A stretch of DNA of 32,595 nt from an uncultured Lachnospiraceae bacterium. GTDB taxonomy: Bacteria > Bacillota > Clostridia > Lachnospirales > Lachnospiraceae. Positions 10,888-32,595 of the stretch are shown here, one piece after another. Numbering within the stretch: position 1 is the first letter of the stretch; every line of letters begins with the position of its first letter. The translations under genes and the position numbers were made by a program. The notes beneath the pieces are model-generated. The model saw only the letters and a program-made list of their open reading frames with translations. It was not told the DNA's origin and made no database searches. The stretch spans positions 1-32,595 of the forward strand of contig CAMWLJ010000035.1 of assembly GCA_947175055.1 (NCBI GenBank), given 5' to 3'.

Positions 10888-10894
10888 TGTTTAA

Positions 10895-10922: not shown

Positions 10923-10926
10923 TGTA

Positions 10927-10995
10927 CATTCCCCCGTTTTTGTGGTATTTTATATATGTGTAAAATCTTAGCGAAATCTTAGCAACGGGGGAATG
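10927..10995 (+). promoter_or_regulatory. 12-bp inverted repeat that includes the mscS ribosome binding site
   Basis: CATTCCCCCGTT (10927-10938) is the exact reverse complement of AACGGGGGAATG (10984-10995), which contains the GGGGG ribosome binding site 8 nt ahead of the mscS ATG. In a transcript reading through from natB the two arms could pair and hide the site. A transcript starting between them (TAAAAT at 10961-10966 is a weak -10) would lack the left arm. AAATCTTAGC also occurs twice in the loop. Confidence 0.5.
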
Positions 10996-10999
10996 CAGA

Positions 11000-11806: not shown

Positions 11807-11836
11807 GGAACATAAGAAGAGGAATGGAGACGGGAT

Positions 11837-13189: not shown

Positions 13190-13202
13190 TTTCGGGTATA
13201 AT
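13174..13202 (+). promoter_or_regulatory. Predicted promoter of the chemoreceptor gene
   Basis: TGGACG (13174-13179), a 17-bp spacer and TATAAT (13197-13202). The -35 lies inside the end of the MATE gene. It would give a leader of about 110 nt. Confidence 0.55.
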
Positions 13203-13236
13203 ATCGACATAATATGACGATGCAGGAGTAAGGTTT

Positions 13237-13286
13237 ACTAAATTGTCTGATGAGCAATTTAGTTCAACAAACTGAACAAGTTCAGT
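13237..13286 (+). promoter_or_regulatory. Two palindromes in the chemoreceptor leader
   Basis: ACTAAATTG/CAATTTAGT (13237-13245/13255-13263) and ACTGAAC-AA-GTTCAGT (13271-13277/13280-13286) lie between the predicted promoter and the ribosome binding site. The sequence between them (GTTCAACAAACTGAAC) is also near-palindromic. They may be operator sites or leader hairpins. Confidence 0.5.
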
Positions 13287-13319
13287 CAGAGCTTGTAACG
13301 CTTCGGAATGGAGGGAATA

Positions 13320-14597
13320 ATGAAAACAATCAAAGGCAGGCTGTTAGCTACGGTCTCTGCAGCAGCATTTATCGTTCTTTTTGTCGGCGTGGCGGCGGCA
13401 GCGGTGGTGGCCGGTAAGGCCGGGTTTGGCCGTGCTGTCAGTGCAGGATTTCTGATCGGTGTAGTGGGAACGGCGGTTATTGATCTGGCTGTGTCTTCGG
13501 TTCTTGGCAGGGCACTGGGGCCGATCACGGAACTGAAACAGTTCGCGGTCGGGGATTTCAGCGAACAGGGTCATAGCGGCATGACGGGCGGTGTGGCGGA
13601 CGGATTCCGGGACGAAGTGGAAGAAGTGACCCATGCGGCCAAGGCCATCAGACAGCGGATGCGGGAGACCATCACCAGCACCAACGGGGAAGCGGCGAAT
13701 ATTGCAGATACTGCGTCGGCGGCGTACAGTGAGATGGCGGATCTGAATAATAAGATCGACGAGATGGATCAGGTGATGGACGGTCTTACCGGCAAGGTGC
13801 GTGAGGCGGCGGAAGTGACCCAGAGCATCAGCGACGCCAGCGGAGAAATCGGTATGGTGGTGGACGATGTGTCCTGCAAGGCCTCTGAATCGGCGGATGC
13901 TTCCCGGGATATCAATATCCGGGCAGACAAGCTTTATAAGAGTACGGTGGAATCTCAGAAACAGGCCACGGTCGTTTATCATAATGCGGCCGGTGAGTTG
14001 GAGAGGGCACTGAAGGAAGTGGAGAAGATTGAAGTCATCAGGAATCTTTCCAAAGAAATTGGGGAGATTGCGGGTAAGACCAATCTGATCGCCCTGAATG
14101 CGGCTATCGAGGCGGCCAGGGCAGGTGACGCGGGCAGAGGCTTTACGGTGGTGTCCGAGGAAGTCAGGAACCTGGCGGAGAGTTCGCAGGTTACGGTAGA
14201 CAAGATCCAGAAGGTGATCGGTGAAGTGGTGGATTCCGTTATGGATCTGAAAGACAGCTCCGGGAAACTGTTGGAATTCGTGCGGGAAGAAGTCATGTCT
14301 GATTACGACACGATGGTGAGCACTGCGGAGCAGTACCAGAAAGACGCCTTCTTTTTCGACGGTATCGCCACGGATCTGGGTGCTTCGGCAGAGGAGATGG
14401 GTGCTTCCATCGAGGAGATGCTGGCTTCCCTGCAGACCGTTTCTTCTCTAAATAATGTGATCGTTGAGGAAGTCAGCAATGTGGCCGGTGCGATGCAGAA
14501 TACCAATGTAGACTCAGAGGAGATCCTGCGTAAGATGTCGATCATGGAGCGGAGCAGCCGTTCCCTGCAGGAGATCGCTTCCGCCTTCCGGGTGTGA
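13320..14597 (+). CDS. Methyl-accepting chemotaxis protein lacking an external sensor domain
   Basis: A 425-aa transducer. Two hydrophobic segments (about residues 8-32 and 38-58) are separated by only a few residues, so there is no extracytoplasmic sensor. A HAMP-like linker follows, then the signalling domain with the conserved tip [20 protein letters not shown] and [13 protein letters not shown]. It would feed the CheA/CheW pathway or a related system. Its signal may be membrane state or a cytoplasmic partner (inference). GGAGG 5 nt ahead supports the ATG at 13320 rather than 13308. No other chemotaxis gene is in the window. Confidence 0.92.
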
Positions 14598-14617
14598 GCG
14601 GCATGCGTTAGGCGGTC

Positions 14618-15913
14618 TTAGTCCTTGATATGATTTCGCAGGCAGTACAAGGCCAGCACGTTAGGCAGGACCATCATGGCATTGATCAGGTCGGTGCTCT
14701 CCCAGACGAGGCGCATGGGAATGATGGCGCCGAAGTAGATCATCAGAATATAAGCGAGTTTATAGAGCGGAATACCTTTTTTTCCTACAAGGTATTCCGT
14801 TGCTTTTTCTCCAAAATAGGACCATCCGATGAGGGTGGTAACGGCAAAGGCTGCCAGAGAGATGGTCAGGAAGGCATCTCCCACGTAGGGCAGGTGACGG
14901 AAGGCGGCTGCTGTCAGGTCGGTTTCCGCCGCGCCCGCTACGGAGGCCGGATCATAGAGCATGTTGGCCACGATGACGATGCCGGTGACCAGGCACATGA
15001 CCACCGTGTCCCAGAAGACTGCGGTCATGGAGACGTAGGCTTGGATACGGGGTTCGGACACATGGGATGCGGCGGCCGCGATGGCTGAAGTACCGATGCC
15101 CGCTTCGTTGGTGAAAAGTCCCCTGGCGATGCCGTAGCGCAGAGCGTGCTGTACTGCCGCGCCTGCCATGCCGCCGGTTACGGATCTGAAGGAGAAAGCA
15201 TCTCGTAAGATCAGCAGACAGGCGGAGAGCAGCACGTCGTGATAGAGCAGCATGAGCAGCAGACAGCCGAAAAGGTAGACAAAGCTGATGGCCGGCACCA
15301 TGCGTTCGCAGATGTTGGCGATGCTCTTCACGCCGCCGAGAATCACGGTACCGGTGAGGAAAGCGAGGACGATCCCCACCAGATGGGGTGACAGGCGGAA
15401 GGTGGCCCGGGCCGCCTGGGTGACGGAGTTGGCCTGGGTAGTACAGCCTACGCCGAAGGCAGCGATCAGCGTGCAGGCGGCATAGATACCACCCAGATAT
15501 TTGTTATGTAAACCATTTTTCAACACATACATGGGGCCGCCCACATAGTCGCCAGCGGCATTGCGGCTGCGAAAGAGGACGCTTAAGTAGCATTCACTGT
15601 AGGCAGTAGCCATGCCCAGGATGCCGGTGATCCAACACCAGAAGATGGCTCCCGGACCGCCCAAAGCCACGGCGGTGGAGACGCCGATGATATTGCCGGT
15701 GCCTAAGGTGGCAGCCAGGGTGGTAGCCAGAGCGGAGAAGGGAGACAGGTTCTGCCCGGTGTTGTCCGCCTTGCCGAAGGACAATTTCAGCGCATAGAGA
15801 AGATTGCGTTGGGGAAAATGCAGTTTCAGGGTGAAATAAATGTGGGTTCCCATCAGAAGTGTCAGGAGGGGAAGGCCCCAGATTAGGTCGTTGAGTCGTT
15901 CCAGCAGAGCCAT
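14618..15913 (-). CDS. AGCS family sodium:alanine/glycine symporter
   Basis: A 431-aa membrane protein with about 11 TMs and strong AGCS hallmarks: ATTLAATLGTGNIIGVSTAV near residues 63-82, GGPGAIFWCWITGILGMAT next, then GLFTNEAGIGTSAIAAAA near 265-282. These carriers import alanine or glycine with Na+. The ribosome binding site is weak (AAGGAA about 12 nt ahead). It is convergent with the chemoreceptor gene (20 bp gap) and divergent from the next rightward genes, so probably monocistronic. Confidence 0.93.
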   Translation of the reverse strand: MALLERLNDLIWGLPLLTLLMGTHIYFTLKLHFPQRNLLYALKLSFGKADNTGQNLSPFSALATTLAATLGTGNIIGVSTAVALGGPGAIFWCWITGILGMATAYSECYLSVLFRSRNAAGDYVGGPMYVLKNGLHNKYLGGIYAACTLIAAFGVGCTTQANSVTQAARATFRLSPHLVGIVLAFLTGTVILGGVKSIANICERMVPAISFVYLFGCLLLMLLYHDVLLSACLLILRDAFSFRSVTGGMAGAAVQHALRYGIARGLFTNEAGIGTSAIAAAASHVSEPRIQAYVSMTAVFWDTVVMCLVTGIVIVANMLYDPASVAGAAETDLTAAAFRHLPYVGDAFLTISLAAFAVTTLIGWSYFGEKATEYLVGKKGIPLYKLAYILMIYFGAIIPMRLVWESTDLINAMMVLPNVLALYCLRNHIKD

Positions 15914-16080
15914 AGGCGGTAATATTCCTTATCGGATGGCGTTTTGTCCGGTGGGATCCTGACGCCGGAGTAAGCCTTTTCATTCTATATATATCGATAA
16001 GGGGAAGTAAAAAGAACTGAAATGTGGTACACTTAGTATAAAACATTAGAAATTAAACTGCTCTGACAGGGAGGATCGGT

Positions 16081-16464
16081 ATGGAAGAACGGGCATATCA
16101 ATGGGCGCAGGCACTCTGTTCTTGTGCGGGAGAAGACACGGATTTTTTACGGAGATTTTGGACGGCGCTTTTGCAGTCGGAGGGAGTCTATCGGGAATTT
16201 GTGTATTATCTGGAACATGAGACGTTTCTCTGTGACTATAAGGTGGCAGGTTACAGTGTAGTTGATATTATGGTGTGGCAGATCGATCATTTTAAGGCCA
16301 ATCTGGATTTAAGCCACAGTGGAGCGGCTTACGCGGGCGGACACAACGGTGACCGGATGCTGTTATCCGCTTTCGATACGATGCTGAAGATGGAGCGGGA
16401 ACCGGAGCGGTATGCGGCGTCCATGCGTAGCGAGACAGGGACCGACTATCCGGATAAGTATTAG
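16081..16464 (+). CDS. Conserved-looking protein of unknown function (127 aa)
   Basis: A soluble protein with aromatic and acidic residues throughout, four Cys-His-type residues scattered but no clear motif, no signal peptide and no TM. Distinct segments are TDFLRRFWTALLQSEGVYRE and VVDIMVWQIDHFKANLD, both predicted helical. GGGAGGATCGGT gives a good ribosome binding site. It starts a rightward cluster with a nucleoid-associated protein (44 bp later) and an Mbeg1-like protein. I do not recognise a family. Confidence 0.7.
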   Translation: MEERAYQWAQALCSCAGEDTDFLRRFWTALLQSEGVYREFVYYLEHETFLCDYKVAGYSVVDIMVWQIDHFKANLDLSHSGAAYAGGHNGDRMLLSAFDTMLKMEREPERYAASMRSETGTDYPDKY

Positions 16465-16508
16465 GGAACGCCCGGCACAAGTATTATAGAAAGGAATACA
16501 ACATACCA

Positions 16509-17534
16509 ATGAACAAAGAGGATATCAGAATCAAAAATGTGATTGTACATATTATGGATCCGACCATCGGGATGCCGGTGCTGTCGGATACGGAGCTGGA
16601 GTATGGCTCCGAGATCGCAGAATTCTTGAAGGAGCATATCGCTAAGATCAGTTCCGGGGATGATGCCAAGGAGTGTCGGTTTTACAAGGAAGAGTCAGAG
16701 ATCTATCAGATGCTGAATGCCTATTCAGACGAAGAGTTTGTGACGGTCAGCAAGGACATTGCCGGGCTTTTGTATGAGATCATGAGCGGTAATATCGACA
16801 TTCCGCCGGCAGATCTGATGGTGGTCCGTTTCCGGGAAGGGGAGGAAGAATATCTGGCGCTTTTGAAAATGAACTATAAGGCCTTCTATACGCATCGGAC
16901 GATGGCGGCAGAGGACGGGGACGGCAACCGCAATGAGATCATACGGCATAAGTCCATCCTGCCGTCGGAGAGCCAGCGGCTGACGGAAGCGGCGATCATC
17001 CGATTGAGCGATCTGGCGTTGCAGGTGATCGAGAGGAAGTATGAGGTGAATGGGGAGAAGACGAATTATTTTTCCTTTCTTTTTCTGAAATGCAGTGCTC
17101 ATATGTCCCATAAGTCGAAATTATCCATTGTCAGCCGAGCCGTAGAGAGCGTACAGAAAGAAGGATTCGACGAGACGGAGCGGTTTGAGAAGCAGATGCG
17201 GGCCAAGAGCATCATCCAGGAAGAGATTGAGGAAAAGGGTGGTTTTGTGGTGGAAGAGCTGGCGGAGAAAATATTTGAGGAAGAACCGGAATTGAAAGTG
17301 GCTTTTCAGGATAAGATGGAAAAGTATGATATGGTAAAGGAAGAGATACAGCCGCAGAGCGAGAATACGGTACGCAAGTACCAGAGCCAGCATCTATATA
17401 CGGACACCGGGATCGAGATCAAGATTCCCATGGAACAGTATAAGAATCCGCACAGTGTGGAATTCATCACCAACCCGGACGGAACGATCTCCGTGTTGAT
17501 CAAGAATATAGAACATTTGGAAGCGAGGCTGTAG
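16509..17534 (+). CDS. Nucleoid-associated protein (37-kDa NdpA/YejK-like)
   Basis: The 341-aa protein resembles the nucleoid-associated 37-kDa family: IRIKNVIVHIMDPTIGMPVL at the N-terminus, LLKMNYKAFYTHRT near 118, a middle segment YFSFLFLKCSAHMSHKSKLS near 182, and a C-terminal VEFITNPDGTISVLIKNIEH. The family binds DNA or nucleoid; its role outside E. coli is little known. Ribosome binding site GAAAGGAA is 9-16 nt ahead. It is probably cotranscribed with the unknown 127-aa gene and the Mbeg1-like gene. Confidence 0.83.
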   Translation: MNKEDIRIKNVIVHIMDPTIGMPVLSDTELEYGSEIAEFLKEHIAKISSGDDAKECRFYKEESEIYQMLNAYSDEEFVTVSKDIAGLLYEIMSGNIDIPPADLMVVRFREGEEEYLALLKMNYKAFYTHRTMAAEDGDGNRNEIIRHKSILPSESQRLTEAAIIRLSDLALQVIERKYEVNGEKTNYFSFLFLKCSAHMSHKSKLSIVSRAVESVQKEGFDETERFEKQMRAKSIIQEEIEEKGGFVVEELAEKIFEEEPELKVAFQDKMEKYDMVKEEIQPQSENTVRKYQSQHLYTDTGIEIKIPMEQYKNPHSVEFITNPDGTISVLIKNIEHLEARL

Positions 17535-17644
17535 GGAGAGCCCCTGCCGGTGAGCAGCGCTATGGCAGGGAGGAAGTGGAAGCGTTCAATAGGAATCGTT
17601 ACAAAAAGACATGCAGGCAGGATCTGTATGTGGAGGACAGGACT

Positions 17645-18931
17645 ATGGGAACAGTTTTGGATTATTTGAAGGAGTACGGGGACTATACGCTGACGGAGAT
17701 GCCTTTCAGTGAGGTGGACAGTCTGATACTCAGCCAGTTCTCTTATTTGAAATTCGACGAGATAGTGCCGGAAGCACAGGAAAAGCAGGCGCAGGCTGCT
17801 ATGACGGAAGCGCCGGTAATGCCGACAGGAGGAGAGGGGAAGGAAGCAGACAGGCCGGAAGCAGCGGAACATGGGGCGGTGCAGAAGGCAGAAATGACGG
17901 AGGCTGCGGCGGTCAGTCTGGAAGAGATGTTCCGGCATGAGAAGTACGATTCTCTGTATGGGGACGAACGGTACCGACGGGACAATACGGCATTGTTTTT
18001 GGGCATGTACGGCAGTAGGCGGTTCCATGAAACAAGGATAACAAATTATGTAAATCAAATCGACTTGGATACAGAGATGCAGTTTTCGGCAGTGACAGTC
18101 CATTTGCCGGACGGCATGGTCTATGTGGCCTTCCGGGGAACGGACGAAACCATCGTGGGCTGGAAGGAGGATCTGAATCTGGCTTTCTCGGAGCCGGTGC
18201 CGGGACAGCTTATGAGTGTGGAGTATCTGAATCATACGGCAGAGACGTTTGCCGGGGATTTCTATGTGGGTGGGCATTCTAAGGGCGGTAATCTGGCTGT
18301 CTATGCGGCGATGAATTGTCGGAAGGAAGTGCGTGACCGTATTGTGACGATCTACGATCATGATGGTCCCGGATTCCGTCCGGAGGTGAAGGCGCAGAGT
18401 GCTTACGGGGAAATCGAGGGCCGGATACGCAAGACGGTTCCCAGGTCATCTTTGGTGGGAATGCTTCTGTACTCAGAAGGGGAGTATGAGGTAGTGGAGA
18501 GTAAGACCATCGGGCTGGCTCAGCATAATCCTTATACCTGGCTGGTAAAGGAAGATGCGTTCCTGATCGTAAAGGATATCCGTACGGGAAGGAAATTCAT
18601 GGATAAGGCGCTGAATCAGTGGATCCTGTCGTTGTCCCAGGAGGAAATGCACACTTTCGTGGATACTTTTTATCAGGTGATCTTAGCTTCGGAGACCGAT
18701 AATCTGATCGATCTTACGGGCAACTGGATGAAAAGCCTGCACCGGATCAGAATGGCCTTAAAGGAGATTGAGCCGGAGACGGAGAAGGCCATCTGGCAGA
18801 TCATGCGGGCGCTTCTGGATATCATTTCCGCGAACATGAAAGAGCGGTTCCGCAACAGGAACGAGACGGAGCGGGAGAAACTGGAAGAAGCCATCAGGCA
18901 GCTGGAATCAGTGTTCAGGAAACAGTCTTGA
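17645..18931 (+). CDS. Mbeg1-like (DUF2974) alpha/beta-hydrolase fold protein
   Basis: A 428-aa protein. The N-terminal MGTVLDYLKEYGDYTLTEMP is typical of the family. An Ala/Glu-rich insert (about 45-90) follows, then the hydrolase core: VYVAFRGTDETIVGWKEDL, the nucleophile elbow GGHSKGGNLAVYAA (Ser212), and IYDHDGPGF. The last 130 residues are helical and charged. These are predicted lipases or esterases acting in the cytosol; the substrate is unknown. The frame extends to 17576, but GGAGG 8 nt ahead selects the ATG at 17645. A weak inverted repeat (CCCTGCC/GGCAGGG) lies between it and the previous gene. Confidence 0.85.
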   Translation: MGTVLDYLKEYGDYTLTEMPFSEVDSLILSQFSYLKFDEIVPEAQEKQAQAAMTEAPVMPTGGEGKEADRPEAAEHGAVQKAEMTEAAAVSLEEMFRHEKYDSLYGDERYRRDNTALFLGMYGSRRFHETRITNYVNQIDLDTEMQFSAVTVHLPDGMVYVAFRGTDETIVGWKEDLNLAFSEPVPGQLMSVEYLNHTAETFAGDFYVGGHSKGGNLAVYAAMNCRKEVRDRIVTIYDHDGPGFRPEVKAQSAYGEIEGRIRKTVPRSSLVGMLLYSEGEYEVVESKTIGLAQHNPYTWLVKEDAFLIVKDIRTGRKFMDKALNQWILSLSQEEMHTFVDTFYQVILASETDNLIDLTGNWMKSLHRIRMALKEIEPETEKAIWQIMRALLDIISANMKERFRNRNETEREKLEEAIRQLESVFRKQS

Positions 18932-18958
18932 GGCTGCGCCATGATGCTCTATCCCGGA

Positions 18959-19630
18959 TCAGTGCGGTGCAGCGGCAGGAGTGCTTTCGGCGAAATACTG
19001 TAAAAGCCTGTCGCCGCTGCTGTCCTGCAGGCGCTCTGGGTGCCACTGCACGGCAATGACCGGCAGGATCGTGTGCTGGATGCCCTCAATGATATTGTCG
19101 CCGGAGCGGCAGACGGAAAGCAGGTTTTTACCAACTCTGTCTATGGCCTGGTGATGGGCAGAGTTGACGGGTGTGCTCAGCCCATATAACTGATAGAAGA
19201 AATCGGTACGCGTCAGCCCGCTGTGATAGACTCGGTGGTTTTGATCTGCGCCGTTCCATTGGTGGTTTACGGCGGTGGGAATGTGCTGGGTGATGGTGCC
19301 GCCCAGGGCCACATTGATCAGCTGCAGCCCTTTACAGATTCCGAGTACGGGTTTTGCCTGCTGCAGAAAGGACTCAAAAGCCTGCATCTGTAGAATATCC
19401 AGTTCTGTGTCTATGCTGCGGGAGCCGAGATCCTGTTGGCCGAAAAAGGCGGGGGTGATGTCACCGCCGCCGGGTAGGAGCAGATGGGAAGCGGTGGCAG
19501 CATATTCGGGATCTAAAGTGGTGAAGCAGGGATGCTTAAGCCTGCGGAGAGCGTTTTCGTAATTTATGGTATCACGGCTGCGGCCGAGAATGGCGATGGT
19601 GACAGGAACTTTCCGATCAGGATAGAGCAT
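18959..19630 (-). CDS. Class I glutamine amidotransferase, gamma-glutamyl-GABA hydrolase type
   Basis: A 223-aa cytosolic hydrolase with the PuuD-like layout: LLLPGGGD near residues 51-57, nucleophile GICKG (Cys99), HSGL near 136-139, SAHHQAID, and QWHPE (His197, Glu199). Relatives cleave gamma-glutamyl-GABA or related gamma-glutamyl amides. No putrescine-pathway gene is adjacent, so the substrate is uncertain. The frame reaches 19684, but TAGGAG 8 nt ahead favours the ATG at 19630. It is convergent with the Mbeg1-like gene and divergent from the arabinofuranosidase. Confidence 0.88.
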   Translation of the reverse strand: MLYPDRKVPVTIAILGRSRDTINYENALRRLKHPCFTTLDPEYAATASHLLLPGGGDITPAFFGQQDLGSRSIDTELDILQMQAFESFLQQAKPVLGICKGLQLINVALGGTITQHIPTAVNHQWNGADQNHRVYHSGLTRTDFFYQLYGLSTPVNSAHHQAIDRVGKNLLSVCRSGDNIIEGIQHTILPVIAVQWHPERLQDSSGDRLLQYFAESTPAAAPH

Positions 19631-19748
19631 AGGATCATCTCCTATTGTAGTTGTGTTACTATAGTATATGTACCTTCTGTTCATTAGTCCATTGTGATGT
19701 TGTTTTGGACGAGGGACGAGTTACTTGTCTAAAAATTGAAAATAGCAG

Positions 19749-19795
19749 TTGCTTTCTTATGTGCTATCTCATATAATTTAGACATAACTAAATTA
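19749..19795 (+). promoter_or_regulatory. Arabinofuranosidase promoter with an operator-like palindrome
   Basis: TTGCTT (19749-19754), a 17-bp spacer and TATAAT (19772-19777). The inverted repeat TAATTTAG-N6-CTAAATTA (19774-19781/19788-19795) overlaps the -10 and the start point, a position where a repressor would block transcription. It does not resemble the AraR box of B. subtilis, so the regulator is unknown. Confidence 0.65.
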
Positions 19796-19878
19796 TTTTA
19801 AAATGTTTTGAAGAATGAAATCTTCATGCATCTTAGAAAATGGAGAGACGGACAATTTCCAGAAGAAAGGGACAGGTA

Positions 19879-21402
19879 ATGGCGATGGTGAGACTGTTTA
19901 TCAACGAGAAAAATAAGAAAGGGCATATTGACCCGGAGATCTACGGACATTTCTCGGAGCATCTGGGTCGGTGTATCTACGAGGGATTGTATGTGGGAGA
20001 GGACTCTGATATTCCCAATGTGAACGGGATGCGCACGGATGTGGTAGAAGCTCTGAAAGAGATGAAGATCCCGGTGCTGCGGTGGCCGGGCGGCTGTTTT
20101 GCGGATGAGTATCATTGGAGGGACGGAATCGGGCCCAAGGAAAACCGCAAGAAGATGATCAACACCCATTGGGGCGGTGTGGTGGAAGACAACAGTTTCG
20201 GAACACATGAGTTCTTTGAGCTGTGTGAGCAGTTGGGCTGTAAAACTTACGTGAACGGCAATGTTGGCAGCGGCACGGTACAGGAGATGAGCGAGTGGGT
20301 GGAGTATATGACCTTTGACGGGGTGTCCCCCATGGCGGATCTGCGCAAGAAGAACGGACATGAGAAGCCCTGGAAGATCGACTATTTCGGTGTTGGCAAT
20401 GAGAACTGGGGCTGCGGCGGCAATATGACTCCTGAGTATTACGCGAATCTGTACAGAAGATATCAGACTTATGTGAGACAATATCACAAGGATGCACCGA
20501 TCAGGAAAGTGTGCGGCGGTCCGAATGTAGCGGATTATTTCTGGACGGAGAAGGTGCTCGAGACATGCTTTGCAAAGCCGCAGCCGGGTGAAGGTATGGG
20601 GACAAGAGGATTTATGGACGGCCTTTCCCTGCATTATTATGTGCATCCGGAAGGATGGGAGAAGAAGGGCAGTGCTACGGAGTTCGACGATAAGACCTGG
20701 TATAAGACAATGGCCAAGGCGGCTTATATCGAGGAACTGATCGAGCGTCACGGAGCAATCATGGATCAGTATGACCCGGAGAAGAAGATCGGTATGGTCA
20801 TAGACGAATGGGGCTGTTGGTTCGAGGTGGAGCCGGGAACGAATCCGGGATTTTTGTATCAGCAGAATACTATGCGCGATGCGTTGGTGGCAGGCGTGTC
20901 TCTGAATATTTTCAATAAACACTGCGACCGTGTCAAGATGACTTGTATCGCGCAGATGGTGAATGTGCTGCAGTCTGTGATCCTGACAGAAGGGCCGAAG
21001 ATGCTCCTGACGCCTACCTATCATGTGTTTCATATGTACAAACATCATCAGGATGCGGAGCTTGTGGACAGCTATATAGAGGGTAATCGGACGATCGGAA
21101 TGGAAGAGGAATACCAGGTGCCGCTTTTGAGCGAGTCTGTGTCCGTGGATGCCGAGGGATATGTCAATGTGACCTTAAACAATCTGTCCGTGACTGAAGA
21201 GGTGCCGGTGGAAATGGCATTCGCGCAGCTTTTGCCAAGCCAGGTAACGGCCGCGATCCTGCGGGAGGAAATGCATGCATACAATACCTTCGAGGAGCCG
21301 GAGAAGGTGAAGGAAGAGGCATTTGATGCCTATGAGATCAGGGACGGGAAAGTCTGCTTCACAGCGCCTGCCTGCAGTGTGATCAGCTTCCGCATTAAGT
21401 AA
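19879..21402 (+). CDS. abfA: GH51 alpha-L-arabinofuranosidase
   Basis: A 507-aa enzyme without signal peptide, so intracellular. It releases L-arabinose from arabino-oligosaccharides taken up by the cell. GH51 marks: [20 protein letters not shown] at the start, [15 protein letters not shown], acid/base Glu175 in [11 protein letters not shown], nucleophile Glu310 in IDEWGCWFE, and a C-terminal beta domain. Length is normal. The frame runs back to 19840; the ribosome binding site AAAGGGA suits the ATG at 19879. No arabinose uptake or catabolic gene is next to it, so it is a stand-alone locus with its own operator. Confidence 0.95.
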
Positions 21403-21468
21403 TACAGACCGCCGACTCTGGAAATCGGCATCATGAATGTGGATCAAAGAAAGAAGTGTGTATAAGAG

Positions 21469-21732
21469 ATGGAAATAGAGACAAGACGTCACTGCCGTAA
21501 GTGTCTTACAAGGGATATGGATCAGAAGACATATTTTGAGAATCTGCACACGTATATCCGGAATCTGGATGATGAGCTTAAAGTTGAGGAGCCGCTTTAT
21601 GAGGAGCGGCTTTCTCAGTGCAAAGAATGCGATCTGCTGACAGATGGCATGTGCAGGGCCTGCGGCTGCTATGTGGAACTGCGCGCGGTGATGAAAAAGA
21701 ACGGCTGCCCCTATGACAAGTGGAAATTATAG
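21469..21732 (+). CDS. DUF6171 family cysteine-rich protein
   Basis: An 87-aa protein with HCRKC near residue 8, CKECD near 51, CRACGCYVELRAVMKKNGCP near 60-79 and a terminal KW: the Cys pattern typical of DUF6171, probably a zinc site. Function unknown. It starts 66 bp after abfA with a weak ribosome binding site, so may be read through from it; a small hairpin (21411-21415/21425-21429) lies between. Its end overlaps the convergent phosphoesterase gene by 6 bp. Confidence 0.8.
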   Translation: MEIETRRHCRKCLTRDMDQKTYFENLHTYIRNLDDELKVEEPLYEERLSQCKECDLLTDGMCRACGCYVELRAVMKKNGCPYDKWKL

Positions 21733-22533
21733 TAATTTGACCGGACCGGAAATGATCTCTCTGGCTACATACAGGATGCTGTCGACTCTGGACTGCATCG
21801 TCCATTTTACCAGTGTGAGTTCTCCCCGCTCGATCTCGATACAGGTGATACAGCGGGGATGCACACAGCTTCCGGTGTTATAATAGAGCGATGGCTCCTG
21901 CGGCAATATAGGCCGATGGGTGTGACCTGTGATCAGAATACAGTGTCGGTTTTCGGCCCAGCTGCGCAGACGTGCTTCACATTTTTCTTTTACCTCATAA
22001 TTTTTGGCGGCGCTGGTGGGATCTAAGAAGCCCAGATTTTCGAGAGGGCTCCAGAAATAACGCACCAGAAACCGGGCCAGCGGCCAGAGTGTGGAATTGA
22101 GCAGGCTGGCCTGGTGGCCGTGAGTCAGGTAGAGAGATTTTTCCGGCAAAGATTCGGAGCGCAGGATCAAAGCTTCCAGAAAGGCCGGGTTCTTCTTACG
22201 GACGATGTTGTGATTGCCGTAGAGAAGATACAGCCGGCCTCTTTCTGCAAACCGGTCAAACATGCAGTAGACATCTTCGTGAATCTCAGTGATGTTGCGC
22301 AGCTTTCGGTTTTCCCACAATTCTTCTCCATCTCCCAGCTCGATATAAGTGAAACCGCTCCGATAGTATTGCTCCAGAGCCGCATAGTAGAGGTGTTGGT
22401 TCTTGAGGAAGTTGTCAGAGGAAGTGCCTACGCCTCGGTGGCAGTCGCTGATAAGAACGTATCGGGAGCATTTGTTTAAGGGCAGTATGGGCGCCTGTGC
22501 AAAAGCGCGGTCCAATCGACTGGTGATACTCAT
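21727..22533 (-). CDS. Calcineurin-like metallophosphoesterase
   Basis: A 268-aa cytosolic protein with all metal-site motifs in order: LISDCHRG, IELGDGEELW, LLYGNHN, LTHGHQ and ITGHTHRP. It would hydrolyse phosphomonoesters or diesters using two metal ions; the layout recalls the LpxH/UDP-sugar branch, but a lipid A role is unlikely in a Gram-positive. AAGGAGA precedes the ATG. It follows the DUF4474 gene by 37 bp on the same strand, so the two are probably cotranscribed. Confidence 0.9.
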   Translation of the reverse strand: MSITSRLDRAFAQAPILPLNKCSRYVLISDCHRGVGTSSDNFLKNQHLYYAALEQYYRSGFTYIELGDGEELWENRKLRNITEIHEDVYCMFDRFAERGRLYLLYGNHNIVRKKNPAFLEALILRSESLPEKSLYLTHGHQASLLNSTLWPLARFLVRYFWSPLENLGFLDPTSAAKNYEVKEKCEARLRSWAENRHCILITGHTHRPILPQEPSLYYNTGSCVHPRCITCIEIERGELTLVKWTMQSRVDSILYVAREIISGPVKLL

Positions 22534-22570
22534 GGATCTTCTCCTTATTTATTTCAATAGATTATTCCGG

Positions 22571-23524
22571 TCATACCTTTTTGTGGTGGTGAGGATGGCA
22601 TCTGCGGCAGTATTTGGGACGGCGGCAGCCATTCTTTCGGTGACAGCGTCTGTGGAAACGGTGCATGCGCATCAGCCTCCGGAAGCAGAACGGAAGGTAG
22701 AAGTAGAGATATAATACACGGTCTTCCGTGCAGAGGAAGGGTCTGGTGATCCAGATGAAGAGACGGCAGTACATCCGATTCAGGCACTGGGAAAAACGAC
22801 GATGGAAACGAGTAAACAGGCCGTAGTGTACGGGCATGGGCCGGTGAAAAGTGAAGGACAGGCAGAGATTCTGTATCGTGATCTGCTCCGCCGGGTATTC
22901 CGCTTTGCATAAACCGTCGTAGAAGGCATTCAGCATTTCTTCATTGGGGAAATAGACGGCAGCCTTCAGCCGAAGATCCCCGGGACGGGAAAAGACGCCC
23001 GGCAGAAAAGCGGTGAGCCACCAGTGCTTTTCGGAGAGCTGGACATAGGTACCGTCCGCCATGCAAAGATGCAGAGAGCAGGAGAGTGTTTCATGCTCAT
23101 CGGCAGCAGAGAAATGGGCTACCTGATATTCGGCCTCGGACAACAGTCTGTCGGCATGATAGATACCGATCTCGGCACCGGTGTTGATGCCGTATTGCCC
23201 TTTCCAGAATTCGATCAGCCATGTTTTATCCAGATAATCAAAGTAGACAGGAAGCGCGTCGAAGACCATCTGGAAACGGGGCGCCATATAGTCGTAGATC
23301 CAAGTATAGCCGGCGGATTTCTGCCACGCATCCAGTGTGGAAGAAAAGAAACCGCAGCAGCAGTGGTAGGCGTAGCCGAAGGGCGTTGCCAGTTCCTCCA
23401 GAAGAGAGCATTTCTGACATTTGTCCATACACTTAATTTTACAGATGATCTTTTTTCTGCGGTAATGACAGAACAGCATACATACAAGTGCGACCAGAAA
23501 TAAGATAAAAAGAGTAACGTACAT
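22571..23524 (-). CDS. DUF4474 domain protein with N-terminal membrane anchor
   Basis: A 317-aa protein. Residues 1-20 form one TM, followed by a basic stretch with CMDKCQKC. The DUF4474 core spans about 45-230: CCGFFSSTLDAWQKSAGYTW, FDYLDKTWLIEFWKGQYGI, NTGAEIGIYHAD. The last 60 residues are unusually basic and rich in His and Cys (HRRCHRKNGCRRPKYCRRCH), which could bind metal or nucleic acid. Function unknown; family members are spread in Clostridia. The ribosome binding site is weak. First gene of a leftward pair with the phosphoesterase. Confidence 0.82.
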   Translation of the reverse strand: MYVTLFILFLVALVCMLFCHYRRKKIICKIKCMDKCQKCSLLEELATPFGYAYHCCCGFFSSTLDAWQKSAGYTWIYDYMAPRFQMVFDALPVYFDYLDKTWLIEFWKGQYGINTGAEIGIYHADRLLSEAEYQVAHFSAADEHETLSCSLHLCMADGTYVQLSEKHWWLTAFLPGVFSRPGDLRLKAAVYFPNEEMLNAFYDGLCKAEYPAEQITIQNLCLSFTFHRPMPVHYGLFTRFHRRFSQCLNRMYCRLFIWITRPFLCTEDRVLYLYFYLPFCFRRLMRMHRFHRRCHRKNGCRRPKYCRRCHPHHHKKV

Positions 23525-23724
23525 AATGAATAACCTATAATCCTATGTGGTTTGGTTCTATTTTATGCCGGGAAATATAAAAGGTTATTGAAGATTTTAG
23601 GTGTGCAAGATCGTTTATATAAGTATGTAAGGGCACCGTTCTTTTCACAGAACGTTTATGTCTGGCAAAGAATATTCCAAGGAACTTACTGTTTGATCGA
23701 AAATTGTGAATGGAGGATGCAGTC

Positions 23725-24648
23725 ATGAGAAGGAAAATCTTGCAGGTCGTGCTGTGTGCGCTGACAGTACCATGCCTTTGTAGCTGTACAACGGTGCTGC
23801 CGGAGGAAATAGGAGGAAGCGGTGAATGGGCTGTTTCGGAACAGTCGAGTTATTTTGAGGATTATGTTTCCGAGACTAGCGATGAAAGCTGCAGCGTAAA
23901 GGGGAATGTGTATCTGTTTGCCGAGGATGCAGGGGTGTGCCGATTTACGTCCGCGGAAGAGTCCGTGATCGACCTGCAGGGCAGTGTGAGGAATGTGAAG
24001 GGAGATGTGCGACTGGTCTGTGAAGCGACGGACGGAGTGCAGACGATCCTTGTGGAAGGGGAAGACCATAAGATTGAGAAGACAGTAATGGTGTCAGAAG
24101 GAGGAGGGGAGATTTACTTTACCGGGGAAGGCAGGTGCGAGTTCAAGCTGGAGATGAAAGCCGGGATGGATGTGACATTTGGCAATGGAACCGAATCGGA
24201 ATCTACGGAGACGGATGAGGATCTGATGTTGTCGGAAGATATAGATGAGATACCGGAAGGACTAAGTGGGCTGTCAGAATCGCCAAAGTTGTTGCGTATA
24301 GACAGTGAATTGCCGGAGGGCATCGAGGGGGAAGGAGACGCAAGATTCCCAGGTGTGACGGATGAATGGCCGGAGAGTATTTCACTGGAAAATAAGGGGA
24401 TGAGCGCAAACCCGCTTTATATCGACTTTAAAGTGGATGAAGCGATGAAAGTCTCTGTTTCGTGTGTGACGACAGAAGGCACGCTTCAGGTAAAGATCAT
24501 AGATCAGGATAAGGATCGTGTTTATTTTGACGAAAAAGATCCGCGGGGAGATTATGAGATATCGATCGATGAGACCGGAACCTGCTGTCTGGTGATTTAT
24601 GCGGACGCCCATAGAGGAAGTATCAAGATGACGCCCGTGAAAGAATAG
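23725..24648 (+). CDS. Acidic lipoprotein of unknown function
   Basis: A 308-aa protein with signal peptide MRRKILQVVLCALTVPCLCS and a lipobox-like LCSC near residues 18-21 (several Cys, so the exact lipidated one is uncertain). The mature part is very acidic. Two beta-rich parts (about 45-140 and 225-308) are joined by a Glu/Ser-rich linker, and may be diverged copies of one fold. GGAGG 8 nt ahead supports the ATG at 23725 over 23710. It would sit on the outer face of the membrane. The 200 bp before it separate it from the divergent DUF4474 gene and hold only a short hairpin (CGTTCT/AGAACG). Confidence 0.75.
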   Translation: MRRKILQVVLCALTVPCLCSCTTVLPEEIGGSGEWAVSEQSSYFEDYVSETSDESCSVKGNVYLFAEDAGVCRFTSAEESVIDLQGSVRNVKGDVRLVCEATDGVQTILVEGEDHKIEKTVMVSEGGGEIYFTGEGRCEFKLEMKAGMDVTFGNGTESESTETDEDLMLSEDIDEIPEGLSGLSESPKLLRIDSELPEGIEGEGDARFPGVTDEWPESISLENKGMSANPLYIDFKVDEAMKVSVSCVTTEGTLQVKIIDQDKDRVYFDEKDPRGDYEISIDETGTCCLVIYADAHRGSIKMTPVKE

Positions 24649-26983: not shown

Positions 26984-27317
26984 TTATTGCAAATCACATC
27001 ACTGTTTGTCTTATACCATTCTAATTCTTTACATTCTTTGTGTGTTTAGGATATATCCGGATTTTCGGTCACTTTCCATGAAGGTACGTTCTCATTTCTT
27101 ACGGATAATTTCTGATAATCCAAAAGGAATTTTTCGGTACAATTTCATATTCAAATTTTCTTTAATAGCTCATATGCAGCTTTTGTTGATTTTATGTCTT
27201 GATGCTGCATCAGACCCACAAAATGATACAAAAAGTGACCAAAATGTCATCCAATTTGCAAAAATAAAAAGAGCCAAAAACATTGAAAAATCAACGCTTT
27301 CAGCCCTCTAAGACTAC

Positions 27318-27340
27318 TGCGGAAGATGGGACTTGAACCC
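27318..27340 (-). other. tRNA 3'-end fragment, probable attachment site of an integrated element
   Basis: On the minus strand, positions 27340-27318 read GGGTTCAAGTCCC followed by ATCTTCCGCA: a T-loop (TTCAAGT), one side of the T-stem and a 3' acceptor strand. The 5' side of the T-stem pairs at only three of five positions and no other tRNA part is present, so it is not a whole gene. Integrases of islands and phages often leave such a 3' piece. With the tRNA pointing left, the host should lie left and the element right, which agrees with the fall in GC content after this point. The acceptor strand CTTCCGC would fit a tRNA starting GCGGAAG, as in many tRNA-Leu genes. Confidence 0.6.
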
Positions 27341-27728: not shown

Positions 27729-27971
27729 TTGCACGGACGAGTAACAAGATATCATCATGACAGGAAATATGGATTCATCAGGGGTGACGATGGTAACACG
27801 TATTTCATCCATCAATCAAATTTGAACGGTGAGCATATAAACTCTGGCTATTTTGTATTCTTTAAACCGTTCCAGAATGACAGGAGTGATCACAACGCAA
27901 GAGATCTTGTGGTGATCGAAGCAGTAGAAAGGAAAAGAACACATGGCAAGACACATAAGAAACATGGATGA
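27729..27971 (+). CDS. Cold-shock-domain-like protein
   Basis: An 80-aa protein with a cold-shock (OB-fold) pattern: GRVTRYHHDRKYGFIRGDDG, then NTYFIHQSNL and a later NARDLVVIEA, equivalent to GKVKWFN-KGYGFI, DVFVH and AANV in CspA. RNP1 is partly conserved (KYGFI); the first aromatic is replaced. It would bind single-stranded nucleic acid. The TTG at 27729 follows GGAGG by 10 nt and is preferred over the ATG at 27690, which has no ribosome binding site. The basic tail KRTHGKTHKKHG overlaps the next gene. First gene of a four-gene run. Confidence 0.72.
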   Translation: MHGRVTRYHHDRKYGFIRGDDGNTYFIHQSNLNGEHINSGYFVFFKPFQNDRSDHNARDLVVIEAVERKRTHGKTHKKHG

Positions 27972-28377
27972 GCTGGCAAAAGCAATGCAGCCGGTATTAT
28001 TGAAAATGACTGACCAGTTGGCAGACAGGGTATATGAGACATTGAATTATTTCATATTGGATTATTACAAAGGATATGAGCCATCCAGCTACCAGAGGAC
28101 ACAGGACTACTTACAATCGGCGATCAAAGTAGATGCACATCCATATAAAAGTGGTGTCCGGGCAACTGTGTATATTGATTATGATTCTTTGAACAGCTAT
28201 GGTGTATCGGGGCATCAAGTGGCTAAGTGGAGCAACGAAGGAACACATGGTGGCATGGAAGTAGATCACAAACCCCCATGTATGCAGGATACTATGGATA
28301 TGACAGTCGATAATGGGGAACTTCTAAGATTGGCAGTAGATCATTTGAAGAGTAAGGGATTTTCAGTGCGAACATAG
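27943..28377 (+). CDS. Phage/ICE-type hypothetical protein, possibly HK97 gp10-like
   Basis: A 144-aa soluble protein: helical start (MDELAKAMQPVLLKMTDQLA), then DYYKGYEPSSYQRTQDYLQS, TVYIDYDSLNSYG and WSNEGTHGGMEV. The YxxYxPxxYxRTxxLxxS run followed by a beta stretch and G-HGG resembles small neck/tail proteins (HK97 gp10-like) common in Firmicutes prophages and conjugative elements. The identification is tentative. It overlaps the CSD gene by 29 bp with ribosome binding site AAAGGAAAAG, so is translationally linked to it. Confidence 0.6.
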   Translation: MARHIRNMDELAKAMQPVLLKMTDQLADRVYETLNYFILDYYKGYEPSSYQRTQDYLQSAIKVDAHPYKSGVRATVYIDYDSLNSYGVSGHQVAKWSNEGTHGGMEVDHKPPCMQDTMDMTVDNGELLRLAVDHLKSKGFSVRT

Positions 28378-28695: not shown

Positions 28696-28989
28696 ATGCA
28701 ATTCAAAGAATTAGTGTGGAAGGATGTTGTTTCAGATAGCGTGACTGTTTGCAGTCATTGTGAAATCAATTTATGTGGATGGATAAAAATAGAATTCCGT
28801 ATAAACCATGAACCAAAAGAAAATAAATATTATCTGTATTCTTTCGGCAAAGGAAGTATCAGAAGAATAGAGCCTGAAAAGTATGATTCTGTAGAACTGG
28901 CTAAAAATATGGCATACAGGATATATAGTAATGAGATAGCAAGGATTAAGAAAGCGATTGATTTTCTGGTAGCAGATGATTGTTATTAG
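28696..28989 (+). CDS. Small protein of unknown function (97 aa)
   Basis: It begins 6 bp after the HU-like gene (ribosome binding site GGAGGA inside the HU gene's end), so belongs to the same operon. It contains CSHCEINLCGW, a possible partial zinc site, and a lysine/tyrosine-rich helical end (YDSVELAKNMAYRIYSNEIA). No TM or signal peptide. I do not recognise a family. Confidence 0.65.
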   Translation: MQFKELVWKDVVSDSVTVCSHCEINLCGWIKIEFRINHEPKENKYYLYSFGKGSIRRIEPEKYDSVELAKNMAYRIYSNEIARIKKAIDFLVADDCY

Positions 28990-29890: not shown

Positions 29891-31171
29891 ATGAAGAAAT
29901 TGTTTTTAAATAATGCAGTTATCAGAGACATAAATTTAAATGACTATGAGATAGCTGTTTATGTAGCATTGAGAAGTTTATATGATTTACAAAAAGAGTT
30001 ACAGTATGTTACCTATAATTCAGTTGCATTTGAGTTATATAGCGGTTTGCAGATTTCAAGAAGATGTATGGATCATATTAAGTCTGCTTTAGATTCACTT
30101 GTAGAAAAAGGATTGGTCAAAAAGGTAAATACATTTTCTGCGACTGAATTTATCCTTGATATGAGTGGTCTATACTTTGAGCAGAATACAGAAAAAGATC
30201 TATTCTATACAGTTATTACATTTGATGAAGTACATAGGATAATGAATATTGATACAAAGAAAGATAACTTTTCCATACTACGATATTTTATTATCCTGAT
30301 TAGTTCCATCTGTCATGATAAAGGTACATATGATCATTCTGCTGGATGTAGTGAACATACTGATTTTGTTGGTTTTATGACTCTGGACACACTTGCGAAT
30401 TGGTGTGGGACAACCAAGGCACGTATTATTGAGTATAATTCTATTCTTGAAACTGAGAAAATTATTTATATTTATCGCCATAAACAGAATAAAAAAGATA
30501 AAGAAACAGGACAGATTATGAGCTTTTCTAATCACTATGGCAGATATGAGGATAGACAATGGATTATCCAGTTTGCAAATGAATATGTAGCTACTTATAA
30601 CTTGAAGGAGACGGAAACTCTTGTAAAAGCAGAAAAATCCAGGGAGAACAAAAGATATGCTGCTATCTATAATCTACTGGCAAAAGATTTTGATAAGTAC
30701 ATAGATAATTTTTCGGATGCAGAATTGATTGGAACATATAAATATATCCATAATAAGAATGCCTGTAATGAGAAAAAGCTGAGAGAAATAGAAGAAGGCA
30801 CTGCTGCTTATGATGATATTATTGGCAAAATCAAGAATGAGGATCTGTTCGATGATATTTCATGTGTGGTAGATTATGTCAATAGAATGGCTGAGAAGAA
30901 AAGAAATATGGAAAAGCGAAAGTGTAGCCTTGTTAATGCTGTATCGGATGATAACTGGGGAGAATCTGTTTCCATGGAGTATGATTTTTCTATAGAAGAA
31001 ATACTGGATATGCCTACAGAGGGTGAGGTTCAAATGAACCTGACAAATACAGATTGCATGGGTCAAAATGACCTTTGCAAAAATGAATCTCACGGCGGAA
31101 AAATCCCTTGTGAGTTATTTTGCGTTACGGGAAAAGATTCAGATTATATTGATATAGAGGATTTATTTTAG
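29891..31171 (+). CDS. Winged-helix protein, possible replication initiator-like protein
   Basis: A 426-aa protein. Residues about 15-80 look like a winged helix (LNDYEIAVYVALRSLYDLQK; RRCMDHIKSALDSLVEKGLV). A second HTH-like segment lies near 160-190 (FMTLDTLANWCGTTKARIIE). The middle is charged and helical and the last 60 residues are acidic. Two winged helices in a row resemble plasmid/ICE initiators, but no named Rep motif is seen; a regulator is equally possible. The ribosome binding site is AAAGGA, rather far (13 nt). The box array upstream supports a DNA-binding role. Confidence 0.65.
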   Translation: MKKLFLNNAVIRDINLNDYEIAVYVALRSLYDLQKELQYVTYNSVAFELYSGLQISRRCMDHIKSALDSLVEKGLVKKVNTFSATEFILDMSGLYFEQNTEKDLFYTVITFDEVHRIMNIDTKKDNFSILRYFIILISSICHDKGTYDHSAGCSEHTDFVGFMTLDTLANWCGTTKARIIEYNSILETEKIIYIYRHKQNKKDKETGQIMSFSNHYGRYEDRQWIIQFANEYVATYNLKETETLVKAEKSRENKRYAAIYNLLAKDFDKYIDNFSDAELIGTYKYIHNKNACNEKKLREIEEGTAAYDDIIGKIKNEDLFDDISCVVDYVNRMAEKKRNMEKRKCSLVNAVSDDNWGESVSMEYDFSIEEILDMPTEGEVQMNLTNTDCMGQNDLCKNESHGGKIPCELFCVTGKDSDYIDIEDLF

Positions 31172-31261: not shown

Positions 31262-31504
31262 ATGAAGATTGATACAAATACAATGGTTTCTATTACAGAA
31301 GCAAACCAGAACTTTTCCAAGGTGGCAAGATTGGTGGATGAACATGGGACAGCCGTAATATTGAAAAATAATGTGCCGAGATATCTTGTCATAGATTTCA
31401 GCAAAGTGGAGCGAGATTCTGTTGCATCAGATAACGACATTATGAATCTCTCGAAAAGGTTAATAGAACAGAATAGAGAAGCATATGAGGTATTGGCAAA
31501 ATGA
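31262..31504 (+). CDS. Phd/YefM-family antitoxin
   Basis: An 80-aa protein with the Phd/YefM N-terminal DNA-binding fold: MVSITEANQNFSKVARLVDE, then GTAVILKNNVPRYLVID. The C-terminal part (NLSKRLIEQNREAYEVLAK) would wrap the toxin. GGAG 10 nt ahead fixes the ATG at 31262 (the frame extends to 31199 without a good site). Its stop overlaps the toxin start (ATGA at 31501-31504), the standard coupled layout. It should neutralise Doc and repress the operon. Confidence 0.9.
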   Translation: MKIDTNTMVSITEANQNFSKVARLVDEHGTAVILKNNVPRYLVIDFSKVERDSVASDNDIMNLSKRLIEQNREAYEVLAK

Positions 31505-31878
31505 TCCGTCTGACAAAAAAACAGGTGTTGATGCTTCATACTCAATTGATAGAATCCACAGGTGGAAGTGATGGTATACGGGATGAAGGATTACTTGATT
31601 CTGCATTGGAAAGTCCGTTTCAATCATTTGGTGGTGAAGAACTATATCCAAGCATTCAGGCAAAAGCAGCAAGACTATGTTATGGACTTGTAAAAAATCA
31701 TGCAATGGTAGATGGGAATAAGCGAATAGGGGCACATACCATGCTGGTTTTTCTTGCGGTAAATGGGTATGAATCAAGGTACACACAAAAAGAATTATAT
31801 GAATTGATACTTTGTGTGGCAGATGGGAAAAAAGAATATGAAGATATTTTGTCGTGGATATTGGAACATCAAGTGTAA
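31501..31878 (+). CDS. doc: Doc-family (Fic-fold) toxin
   Basis: A 125-aa protein with SGGSDGIRDEGLLDSALESP-like Doc N-terminus (STGGSDGIRDEGLLDSALES) and the Fic/Doc motif HAMVDGNKRIGAH (His67 to Arg75). Doc enzymes phosphorylate EF-Tu and halt translation. Here the usual Phe after His is Met, while GNKR combines the Fic-type Gly with the Doc-type Lys. Length fits Doc. It follows the antitoxin with a 4-bp overlap. The pair would stabilise the element. Confidence 0.93.
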   Translation: MIRLTKKQVLMLHTQLIESTGGSDGIRDEGLLDSALESPFQSFGGEELYPSIQAKAARLCYGLVKNHAMVDGNKRIGAHTMLVFLAVNGYESRYTQKELYELILCVADGKKEYEDILSWILEHQV

Positions 31879-32595
31879 ATGTGACGCTGGCGCTCAAAGG
31901 GCACTGTAAGATATATATCCAACATGTACCAAAAAGTACGGCTTCGACATAATTGACGGAGCAGATTATAGGTGGGCGGTATTTCGCCGTAGTCCCGTGA
32001 GACGGTGGTTCCTCGCGAGTAACTGGTGTGTACCTGTGGGTACGGAGGTTATCAGGTTTTGAACTATCTTGCTTTAAAAGCAATGTGGTAGATTTCATCT
32101 ATTCGCCCATAAGTGGTCGAAAAATTCCTGCTCCACTGTAGTGAACCTAATTTTGTGCTGGCTGATGGTAAATATTTTACTATCAGATAGAGTCGAAAAT
32201 TCGGCTGTCCTAATTCTGGACATCCGAAAGTGCATAATCTGCATTTTAGAAAATCTGATAAGCGAACACTTTAAAAGGTTTGCTCACTCATTTTGGCGAG
32301 CAAAGATATAGTTTTTGCCAATTCTGGCAAGAACCTATTTCTTTTCAAAATGAAAAACCTGAAACCTTGCAAAGGGTTTAAACCCAACGCCTACAAGGGG
32401 ATAAGTTTTAATAGAGTTGTGTAAAAGGTTGTCCCACGGTGGTACAACCACAAATTAATGCGGATTTATGAATTAGCCCAGGGTGGGCTAATTCGGATAT
32501 GCATACTCTGCATATTTGAAATTCTATCTTTCCCTATAAACTGGGAAAACAGTGTTTCCCGATTTGGAAACGTCACCATTTAAACCAATCGTACA
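31879..32595. other. Gene-free hairpin-rich region, possible large structured RNA or transfer/replication locus
   Basis: No credible reading frame. Hairpins follow one another: 31941-31946/31957-31962, 31975-31978/31985-31988, 32030-32034/32039-32043, 32069-32074/32078-32083, 32162-32172/32176-32186, 32201-32210/32218-32227, 32279-32285/32298-32304, 32315-32320/32325-32330, 32427-32449, 32470-32479/32485-32494 and 32543-32548/32555-32560. AGGTT (32276-32280) and AACCT (32332-32336) could close a stem around two of them, a three-way junction. A hairpin TGCAT-N-TCTGCAT module is duplicated at 32231 and 32499. The strand of any RNA is undecided and the region runs past the window end. Confidence 0.5.

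Follow-up and report, generated by a model that had tools for sequence, protein, structure and literature searches.

ROOL is a large, hairpin-rich RNA of mobile DNA that is often found near tRNA islands, and the Rfam collection includes profiles for ROOL, GOLLD, and OLE, according to the sections of PMC12286853 that deal with these RNAs. The region described here occupies the last 717 bases (31879-32595) of a 32,595-nt stretch analyzed at its full length (the window), which is a whole contig of the draft genome of an uncultured Lachnospiraceae bacterium (G000:C35). Compared with the part of the ROOL account given in that source, it is also large, hairpin-rich, and situated in mobile DNA, with seven tRNA genes in the same orientation upstream in one homologous locus (L025), but it has no Rfam match, is followed by an HNH gene, shows no enrichment of GNRA loops, and has tRNA genes nearby in only a few loci. 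It differs from GOLLD in the lack of an Rfam match, in its gene neighbors, and in whole hairpins that come and go along its length. A homo-oligomeric RNA particle is a mark of ROOL, and expression that rises during phage lysis is a mark of GOLLD.

HEARO, or omega RNA, which accompanies IscB, is likewise a structured RNA beside an HNH gene; however, the HNH protein of the present region matches PHROG 953 and 374, and the region has no Rfam match. The IscB family combines RuvC with HNH, and no RuvC/IscB family was reported among the four HNH proteins scanned against Pfam and the three scanned against PHROG. All three of the latter match HNH endonuclease families (phrog_953, phrog_374, and phrog_959), which are also those of the free-standing HNH homing genes of phages; such genes are not known to have a conserved structured stretch of 0.4-2 kb in front of them.

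The Rfam comparison proposed in the initial annotation gave no family for the region at the gathering threshold, ROOL and GOLLD included, in the window and 16 loci, and only tRNA genes were matched in the loci. Relaxing the limit to E 5 brought up no plausible family either for window positions 31800-32595 or for L024 positions 440-2420; weak matches (microRNAs, STnc240, and the like) were far below gathering scores and were rejected. A literature search returned no paper that we recognized as describing this region. The setting and size resemble those of ROOL and GOLLD, with membership in neither as far as the Rfam models tell. The first reading had been an RNA of the ROOL or GOLLD type or a new class; as far as the models can show, membership in the two named classes is excluded, and a large structured RNA outside Rfam 15 is the part of that reading that is best supported.

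The excess of hairpins in the region was determined by comparison with shuffled sequences. Perfect hairpins with a stem of at least 5 bp and a loop of 3-8 nt numbered 13, against a mean of 3.36 (maximum 9) in 200 shuffles, and those with a stem of at least 6 bp and the same loop range numbered 7, against 0.90 (maximum 4; 200 shuffles). Two had a stem of at least 7 bp (shuffled mean 0.26, maximum 2). Overlapping 717-nt windows of the remaining contig contained a mean of 1.24 and at most 5 hairpins with a stem of at least 6 bp. The RNA fold of the region had a z-score of -6.96 on the + strand and -6.86 on the - strand (20 dinucleotide shuffles each). The density of hairpins is above chance, and the hairpin-dense stretch of about 700 bp noticed at first is real. 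A 212-codon ORF on the minus strand (31460-32098; mechanical ORF call) overlaps it. The coordinates of the region, its structural parts, and the neighboring features are collected in the table.

Table. Positions in the window of the structured region, its hairpins and conserved blocks, and the neighboring features.
Feature	Position	Strand	Basis or remark
Attachment-site-like duplicate of the final 23 nt of a tRNA-Leu gene	27318..27340	-	exact copy at G000 C1:16191-16213
Cold-shock-like protein, 93 aa	27690..27971	+	Pfam CSD, E 2e-5, under the curated cut-off
144-aa protein	27943..28377	+	aligned from 9 loci
HU-family DNA-binding protein, 97 aa	28396..28689	+	Pfam PF00216, E 2.4e-21
Second 97-aa protein, family unassigned	28696..28989	+	relatives in L021, L025, L027, L036, L037
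"Rep-like" gene, 426 aa	29891..31171	+	name coined in this analysis; no family match
Phd/YefM-type antitoxin gene	31262..31504	+	Pfam, E 3.7e-5, under the cut-off
Fic/Doc-family gene	31501..31878	+	Pfam PF02661, E 2.9e-17
Structured region	31879..32595	+	incomplete, contig end; fold z -6.96; 20 homologous loci
Best-conserved block (model R1), holds the CCCGTGAGACGGTGGTTCCTCGCGAG hairpin	31951..32058	+	one match per locus, 21 loci
Possible long-range helix, 5' side (pairs with 32250-32261)	32049..32060	+	pairing across loci
11-bp hairpin with one G-U	32162..32186	+	read off the sequence
Hairpin with C/T mismatch	32200..32228	+	read off the sequence
Conserved hairpin GCGAAC/GTTTGC	32261..32284	+	consensus fold, 93.2% of cells paired
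Conserved four-helix block (model R2)	32362..32495	+	present in 17 of 21 loci
Hairpin GGTTGTCCCAC/GTGGTACAACC	32427..32449	+	consensus fold
11-bp perfect hairpin, loop GGG	32470..32494	+	hairpin scan
Hairpin TTTCCC/GGGAAA	32529..32548	+	hairpin scan, 17-sequence alignment
Hairpin GTTTCC/GGAAAC	32554..32571	+	hairpin scan, 17-sequence alignment

Most of the individual structures pointed out in the initial annotation were found in place. The stem at 32162-32186, with its one G-U pair and a TAT loop, was read as described, and a C/T internal mismatch is present in both the 32200-32228 hairpin, whose limits were slightly corrected, and the 32427-32449 hairpin. The hairpin at 32470-32494 was correctly placed, but it has a perfect stem of 11 bp and a 3-nt loop rather than 10 bp and 5 nt, and the suggested AGGTT/AACCT three-way junction is absent from the consensus fold. 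The location had also been described as the right side of an element, which finds no support: the contig stops inside the feature, so that the region is truncated, and homologs with the same gene order (L064 and L028) continue to an HNH gene.

The possible long-range helix between 32049-32060 and 32250-32261 is formed by 12 of 12 pairs in the window and L036, 9 of 9 in L064, and 11 of 12 in L025, and by 6-9 of 11-12 pairs in L018, L019, L024, L027, L028, L030, L034, and L040 (109 of 149 pairs summed across all loci). Two further long-range pairings predicted in the window were not kept in the homologs. Beyond the six pairs of the 32529-32548 hairpin, the next inward pair is C-G in 11 of 17 sequences, A-U in 3, and unpaired in 3, including the window. 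One pair of the 32554-32571 hairpin is U-A in 7, C-G in 5, and U-G in 4 of the 17, and its other pairs are frequently open (78.8% of cells paired).

Twenty further distinct loci (L017-L021, L024-L030, L032, L034, L036, L037, L040, and L064-L066) were obtained from searches at the DNA level in two genome samples (397 and 392 genomes), from pattern scans of viral and genome contigs, and from a covariance model run over the relatives of one carrier. In the genome contigs, 15 of 16 pattern hits were homologous, of which 4 repeated known loci; the match L035, which had no other similarity, was dropped. Short blastn matches of 25-42 nt in five genomes (G027, G270, G346, G420, and G480) could not be extended and were not counted, and additional scans of viral contigs returned nothing or L024 again. 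Model R1 matched exactly once in each of the 21 loci, and was found in 6 of 397 genomes of the family, in 4 of 154 relatives of G264, and in 1 of 155 relatives of G381; in a class-level sample of 291 genomes, it was found in the genome of the window only.

The carriers with a given name are Lachnospiraceae, including Petralouisia, Parablautia, and Roseburia, and the remaining genome carriers belong to the same family as the window; L040 ("uncultured bacterium") and L024 (a viral contig) are unplaced. Parablautia muri appears to carry three copies, with L064 as the third beside L028 and L034, because the match coordinates in genome G1022 are identical to those in the carrier of L028 and L034. 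DNA similarity searches against plasmids (72,556 records, at a distant DNA level) and phages showed no match to the region.

Next to the region, a recurring set of genes was observed. The composite order, assembled from several loci, is a cold-shock-like gene, the 144-aa protein gene, HU, the 97-aa protein gene, the Rep-like gene, a Phd-Fic pair in four loci, the structured region, and an HNH gene; no single gene was found in all loci. Where the Rep-like gene or the Phd-Fic pair is present, the array lies behind it; the array is ordered and conserved in 21 loci. The 144-aa protein had no Pfam match at E 0.001 and no PHROG match at E 0.01, and the second 97-aa protein had no match in either collection. 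The stretch between 28990 and 29890 is a second long intergenic one, with a small ORF and a z-score of -2.46, and is partly similar to other loci. The Phd/YefM-type gene occupies the same place in the window, L028, L064, and L065.

The last approximately 75 codons of the Rep-like gene (about 30947-31171) are common, whole or in part, to proteins with dissimilar N-terminal parts. This tail of about 75-80 residues (...DDNWGEPVSM...EEILDMPTEGEVQMNL...IDIEDLY, the last motif being its end in most cases) was whole or partial in 10 of 11 aligned upstream proteins; it is absent from the L018 protein, and the L030 protein stops before its end. Synonymous codons in the tail gave a value of 0.786 against 0.738 in the body of the gene, a difference too small to claim an overlapping RNA. 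A Rep-like gene was not found in L019, L020, L029, and L066.

The region does have neighboring genes on the other side as well: an HNH gene comes next after it in 16 of the 17 loci with sequence beyond it (L017-L021, L024, L027-L029, L034, L036, L037, L040, L064, L065, where it is cut short, and L066). In L019, it is split across two frames. No HNH gene was found in the few hundred bases past the L030 region, and that region merges into a stretch that in L018 comes after the HNH gene. The sequence ends before the HNH position in the window, L025, L026, and L032. L064 has the same order as the window (Rep-like, Phd, Fic, a 740-nt region, and HNH); accordingly, the contig of the window most likely stops short of an HNH gene. 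The L064 HNH protein, used as a query, had no match in the genome of the window (81% complete). The HNH proteins are of dissimilar subtypes, sharing 27-97% identity with the L064 protein. After the HNH gene, directly or some hundred bases on, comes a terminator-like hairpin (AAGGCATATCGGATGTAAAAGTCTGGTATGCCTTATTTTTT in L028) that is nearly the same in all eleven stretches examined from ten loci (e.g., L017:6301-6357 and L024:3720-3771).

Several observations concern the edges of the element. The 23-nt match in contig C1 forms the 3' terminus of a tRNA-Leu gene, detected in L067, and an integrase match lies close by in that contig; no whole tRNA gene is present in the window. The ORF end adjoining the copy in the window (27006-27340) looks similar to an integrase C-terminus. 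The cassette may occupy a tRNA attachment site, next to a decayed element. In L019 (G381:C1:2400914-2401792), an 18-nt repeat of a tRNA-Gly end adjoins the cassette about 790 bp from the tRNA gene. Among the 20 loci scanned (L040 excluded), tRNA genes were nearby in 3, with seven consecutive genes upstream of the cassette in L025 (5946-6666) and one each in L019 and L030. Positions 6433-24000 of the IMG/VR contig contain mixed genes, with no integrase match in the record.

Conservation of base pairing was analyzed in alignments of different extent. In the 16-sequence alignment, the 103 predicted pairs were standard in 90.7% of cells, compared with a mean of 88.9 and a maximum of 89.9 after shuffling and 41-45 in slid versions, and 18 pairs changed on both sides (mean 11.2 and maximum 16 in 300 shuffles; 7-15 in slid versions). 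The best-aligned block (A3; 13 sequences), which was made before L064-L066 were added and leaves out L021, L025, L028, L034, and L036, where the region is short or absent, contained no pair changed on both sides. A5 consists of A3 refitted to the model plus four sequences, three of them low-scoring. In these 17 sequences, the count of cells with changes on both sides was 13 against 3.0, in an alignment that leans toward structure; the score of 0.233, reached by none of 500 shuffles (0.147; slid versions at most 0.086), was obtained on the same model-fitted alignment. A11, the hairpin that precedes the HNH start (7 sequences), scored 0.372 against 0.214, a level that 1 of 500 shuffles attained, and slid versions reached no more than 0.095; one of its pairs varies among A-U, C-G, and G-C. 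A12, which leaves out L020, L025, L032, and L040, was weaker: it scored 0.206 against 0.163, a level that 5 of 500 shuffles attained and that slid versions approached (up to 0.146), and 80.8% of its cells were paired. A simplified R-scape-like test (own code, 18 sequences) showed no significant Watson-Crick pair, and the sole pair below E 0.5 was rejected as an alignment artefact that is not Watson-Crick. Covariation among homologs, named in the initial annotation as a check, was observed in a few hairpins (A5, A11, and A12) and in part over the whole structure, but not in A3 or the R-scape-like test; the outcome is mixed, with some real support that is local and weak.

Taken as a whole, the sequence comparisons give about an even chance that the region is part of a large structured RNA, present here as an incomplete copy, that belongs to a Lachnospiraceae mobile cassette and measures 0.4-2 kb between the flanking genes. 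Such an RNA would most likely represent a new class with no Rfam 15 family. Transcription would run left to right, either from a promoter of the region itself or as an extension of the cassette transcript, and would mostly halt at an intrinsic terminator ahead of HNH; the RNA would fold into a series of hairpins with a few longer-range helices. In L024 and the window, promoter-like matches were no more frequent than in shuffles. Of the 16 HNH-bearing loci, 13 were scanned for terminators; in 10 of them a terminator-like hairpin with a T tract lies upstream of the HNH start, ending 24-120 nt short of it, whereas L037 has a weak one at 156 nt and L020 and L029 lack one. A second scan of L024 did not list the hairpin counted by the first. 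A stop at this position would suggest that the region acts as an RNA and is not a mere leader. From its setting, the RNA may be of use to the element, in the way that ROOL and GOLLD may benefit phages, and the HNH protein might help the cassette to spread by cutting vacant sites.

The same terminator-like hairpins can also be explained by a region that acts only in cis, as a very long untranslated stretch whose attenuators, terminators, and ribosome-site hairpins silence the HNH gene or stabilize the end of the upstream message. Consistent with this, the clearest covarying hairpin (A11), the last before the HNH ribosome site, sits in the HNH leader past the terminator, and in L036 the similarity to the region of the window starts at the stop codon of the upstream gene. 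However, a length of up to 2 kb, in our judgement, far exceeds the needs of a leader, the same region stands ahead of dissimilar HNH subtypes, the conserved blocks are distant from both genes, and L030 has no HNH gene in the available sequence. We consider the purely cis-acting explanation rather unlikely.

The strand on which the structure acts bears on a second alternative, in which the hairpins are a DNA-level site of replication, transfer, or recombination, perhaps bound by HU or used by the Rep-like protein, the genes of which are close by. Fold z-scores on the + strand were below -3 in 18 of 21 loci (mean -6.3), and in none of the 10 control genes, taken from the 16 HNH genes (mean -0.86; 12 shuffles each for both sets); L064 (-2.8), L065, and L066 (-2.0 each) folded more weakly. 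The strands are about equally structured, with a mean of -5.8 on the - strand, which fits a DNA element, and the + energies were below the - energies in 10 of 10 HNH genes also. The consensus fold of 16 sequences reached -80.8 on the + strand (shuffled columns -21.4, sd 3.4) and -57.4 on the - strand (-13.8, sd 3.8), in favor of a + strand RNA.

Single in-stem mismatches, counted without regard to strand in 19 loci, were G-T in 23 and A-C in 5 cases (shuffled 2.7 and 2.2), or 22 and 4 by distinct context (binomial p 0.0015 against the shuffled ratio), which argues against a DNA element; a stricter earlier count gave 13 and 4. The same bias was found in Rep-like genes (8:1 in 12 loci) and coding flanks (9:1), with 1:0 in HNH genes and 0:2 in the rest of the window, and the region did not differ from genes. 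Because the bias is common to Rep-like genes, the RNA reading was lowered slightly and the DNA alternative raised slightly. A column-based strand test of majority Watson-Crick stems was not significant (G-U 185, A-C 136, p 0.11; isolated control pairs 429 and 354), GNRA and UNCG loops were not enriched on the + strand (5 of 464 hairpins against 11 of 735 in shuffles), and many loops are A/T-only, all of which would suit DNA hairpins. In these analyses, L026 and L037, which are close to L029 over much of their length, were left out of the mismatch, consensus-fold, strand, and loop counts; the earliest mismatch count, the consensus fold, and its covariation test were made before L064-L066 were added, and L030 was trimmed to 2250 nt in the per-locus fold comparison and subsequent analyses.

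Against a DNA site, no Rep-like gene was found in the four loci named above, and its N-terminal part is dissimilar in others. The initial annotation had named a transfer or single-strand origin as the main alternative, and no oriT or single-strand origin match was seen by distant DNA similarity to the 72,556 plasmid records, a search that unlike sequences with the same role would escape. A DNA-level role is an unlikely explanation, and an RNA read from the + strand has modest support overall.

A more specific proposal is a partnership between the large RNA and the HNH protein, in which the RNA attaches to the endonuclease and guides or permits its cleavage. The result would be a homing cassette that depends on RNA and has no relation to IscB and Cas9, and the C-terminal tail of the upstream proteins would belong to the same machine; this seems improbable. 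A mobile intron or its relic, with the gene for an HNH homing endonuclease on the 3' side of a self-splicing RNA, would fit the weak HNH_3, NUMOD4, and AP2 similarity of the HNH proteins, which is typical of introns and free-standing homing genes. However, no group I or II intron core was matched in Rfam, at the gathering threshold in the window and 16 loci or at E up to 5 in window positions 31800-32595 and L024 positions 440-2420, and no split exon was noticed, short of a systematic search. An intron has very little probability.

The order of the region is preserved among homologs. BLAST blocks were collinear in 590 of 606 cases across the 196 locus pairs with blocks, and the alignments show whole hairpins gained or lost between loci. 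Large structured RNAs vary by the presence or absence of hairpins with their order kept, and this pattern speaks against random piles of palindromes. A neutral build-up of palindromic repeats in an untranscribed intergenic dump would also let hairpins appear and vanish as whole units, but it is scarcely likely, given the conserved order, several stretches that are nearly invariant among homologs, and the absence of direct repeats inside the loci at E 1e-3.

In summary, one tail on dissimilar upstream proteins and one region before dissimilar HNH genes suggest that the cassette has this region as its unchanging core. If it is an RNA, it would be a further class in the small group of giant ornate RNAs that mobile DNA carries. 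The recurring neighborhood of HU, the 144-aa protein, the Rep-like protein, and HNH, together with named carriers such as Parablautia muri, would then make its function testable.
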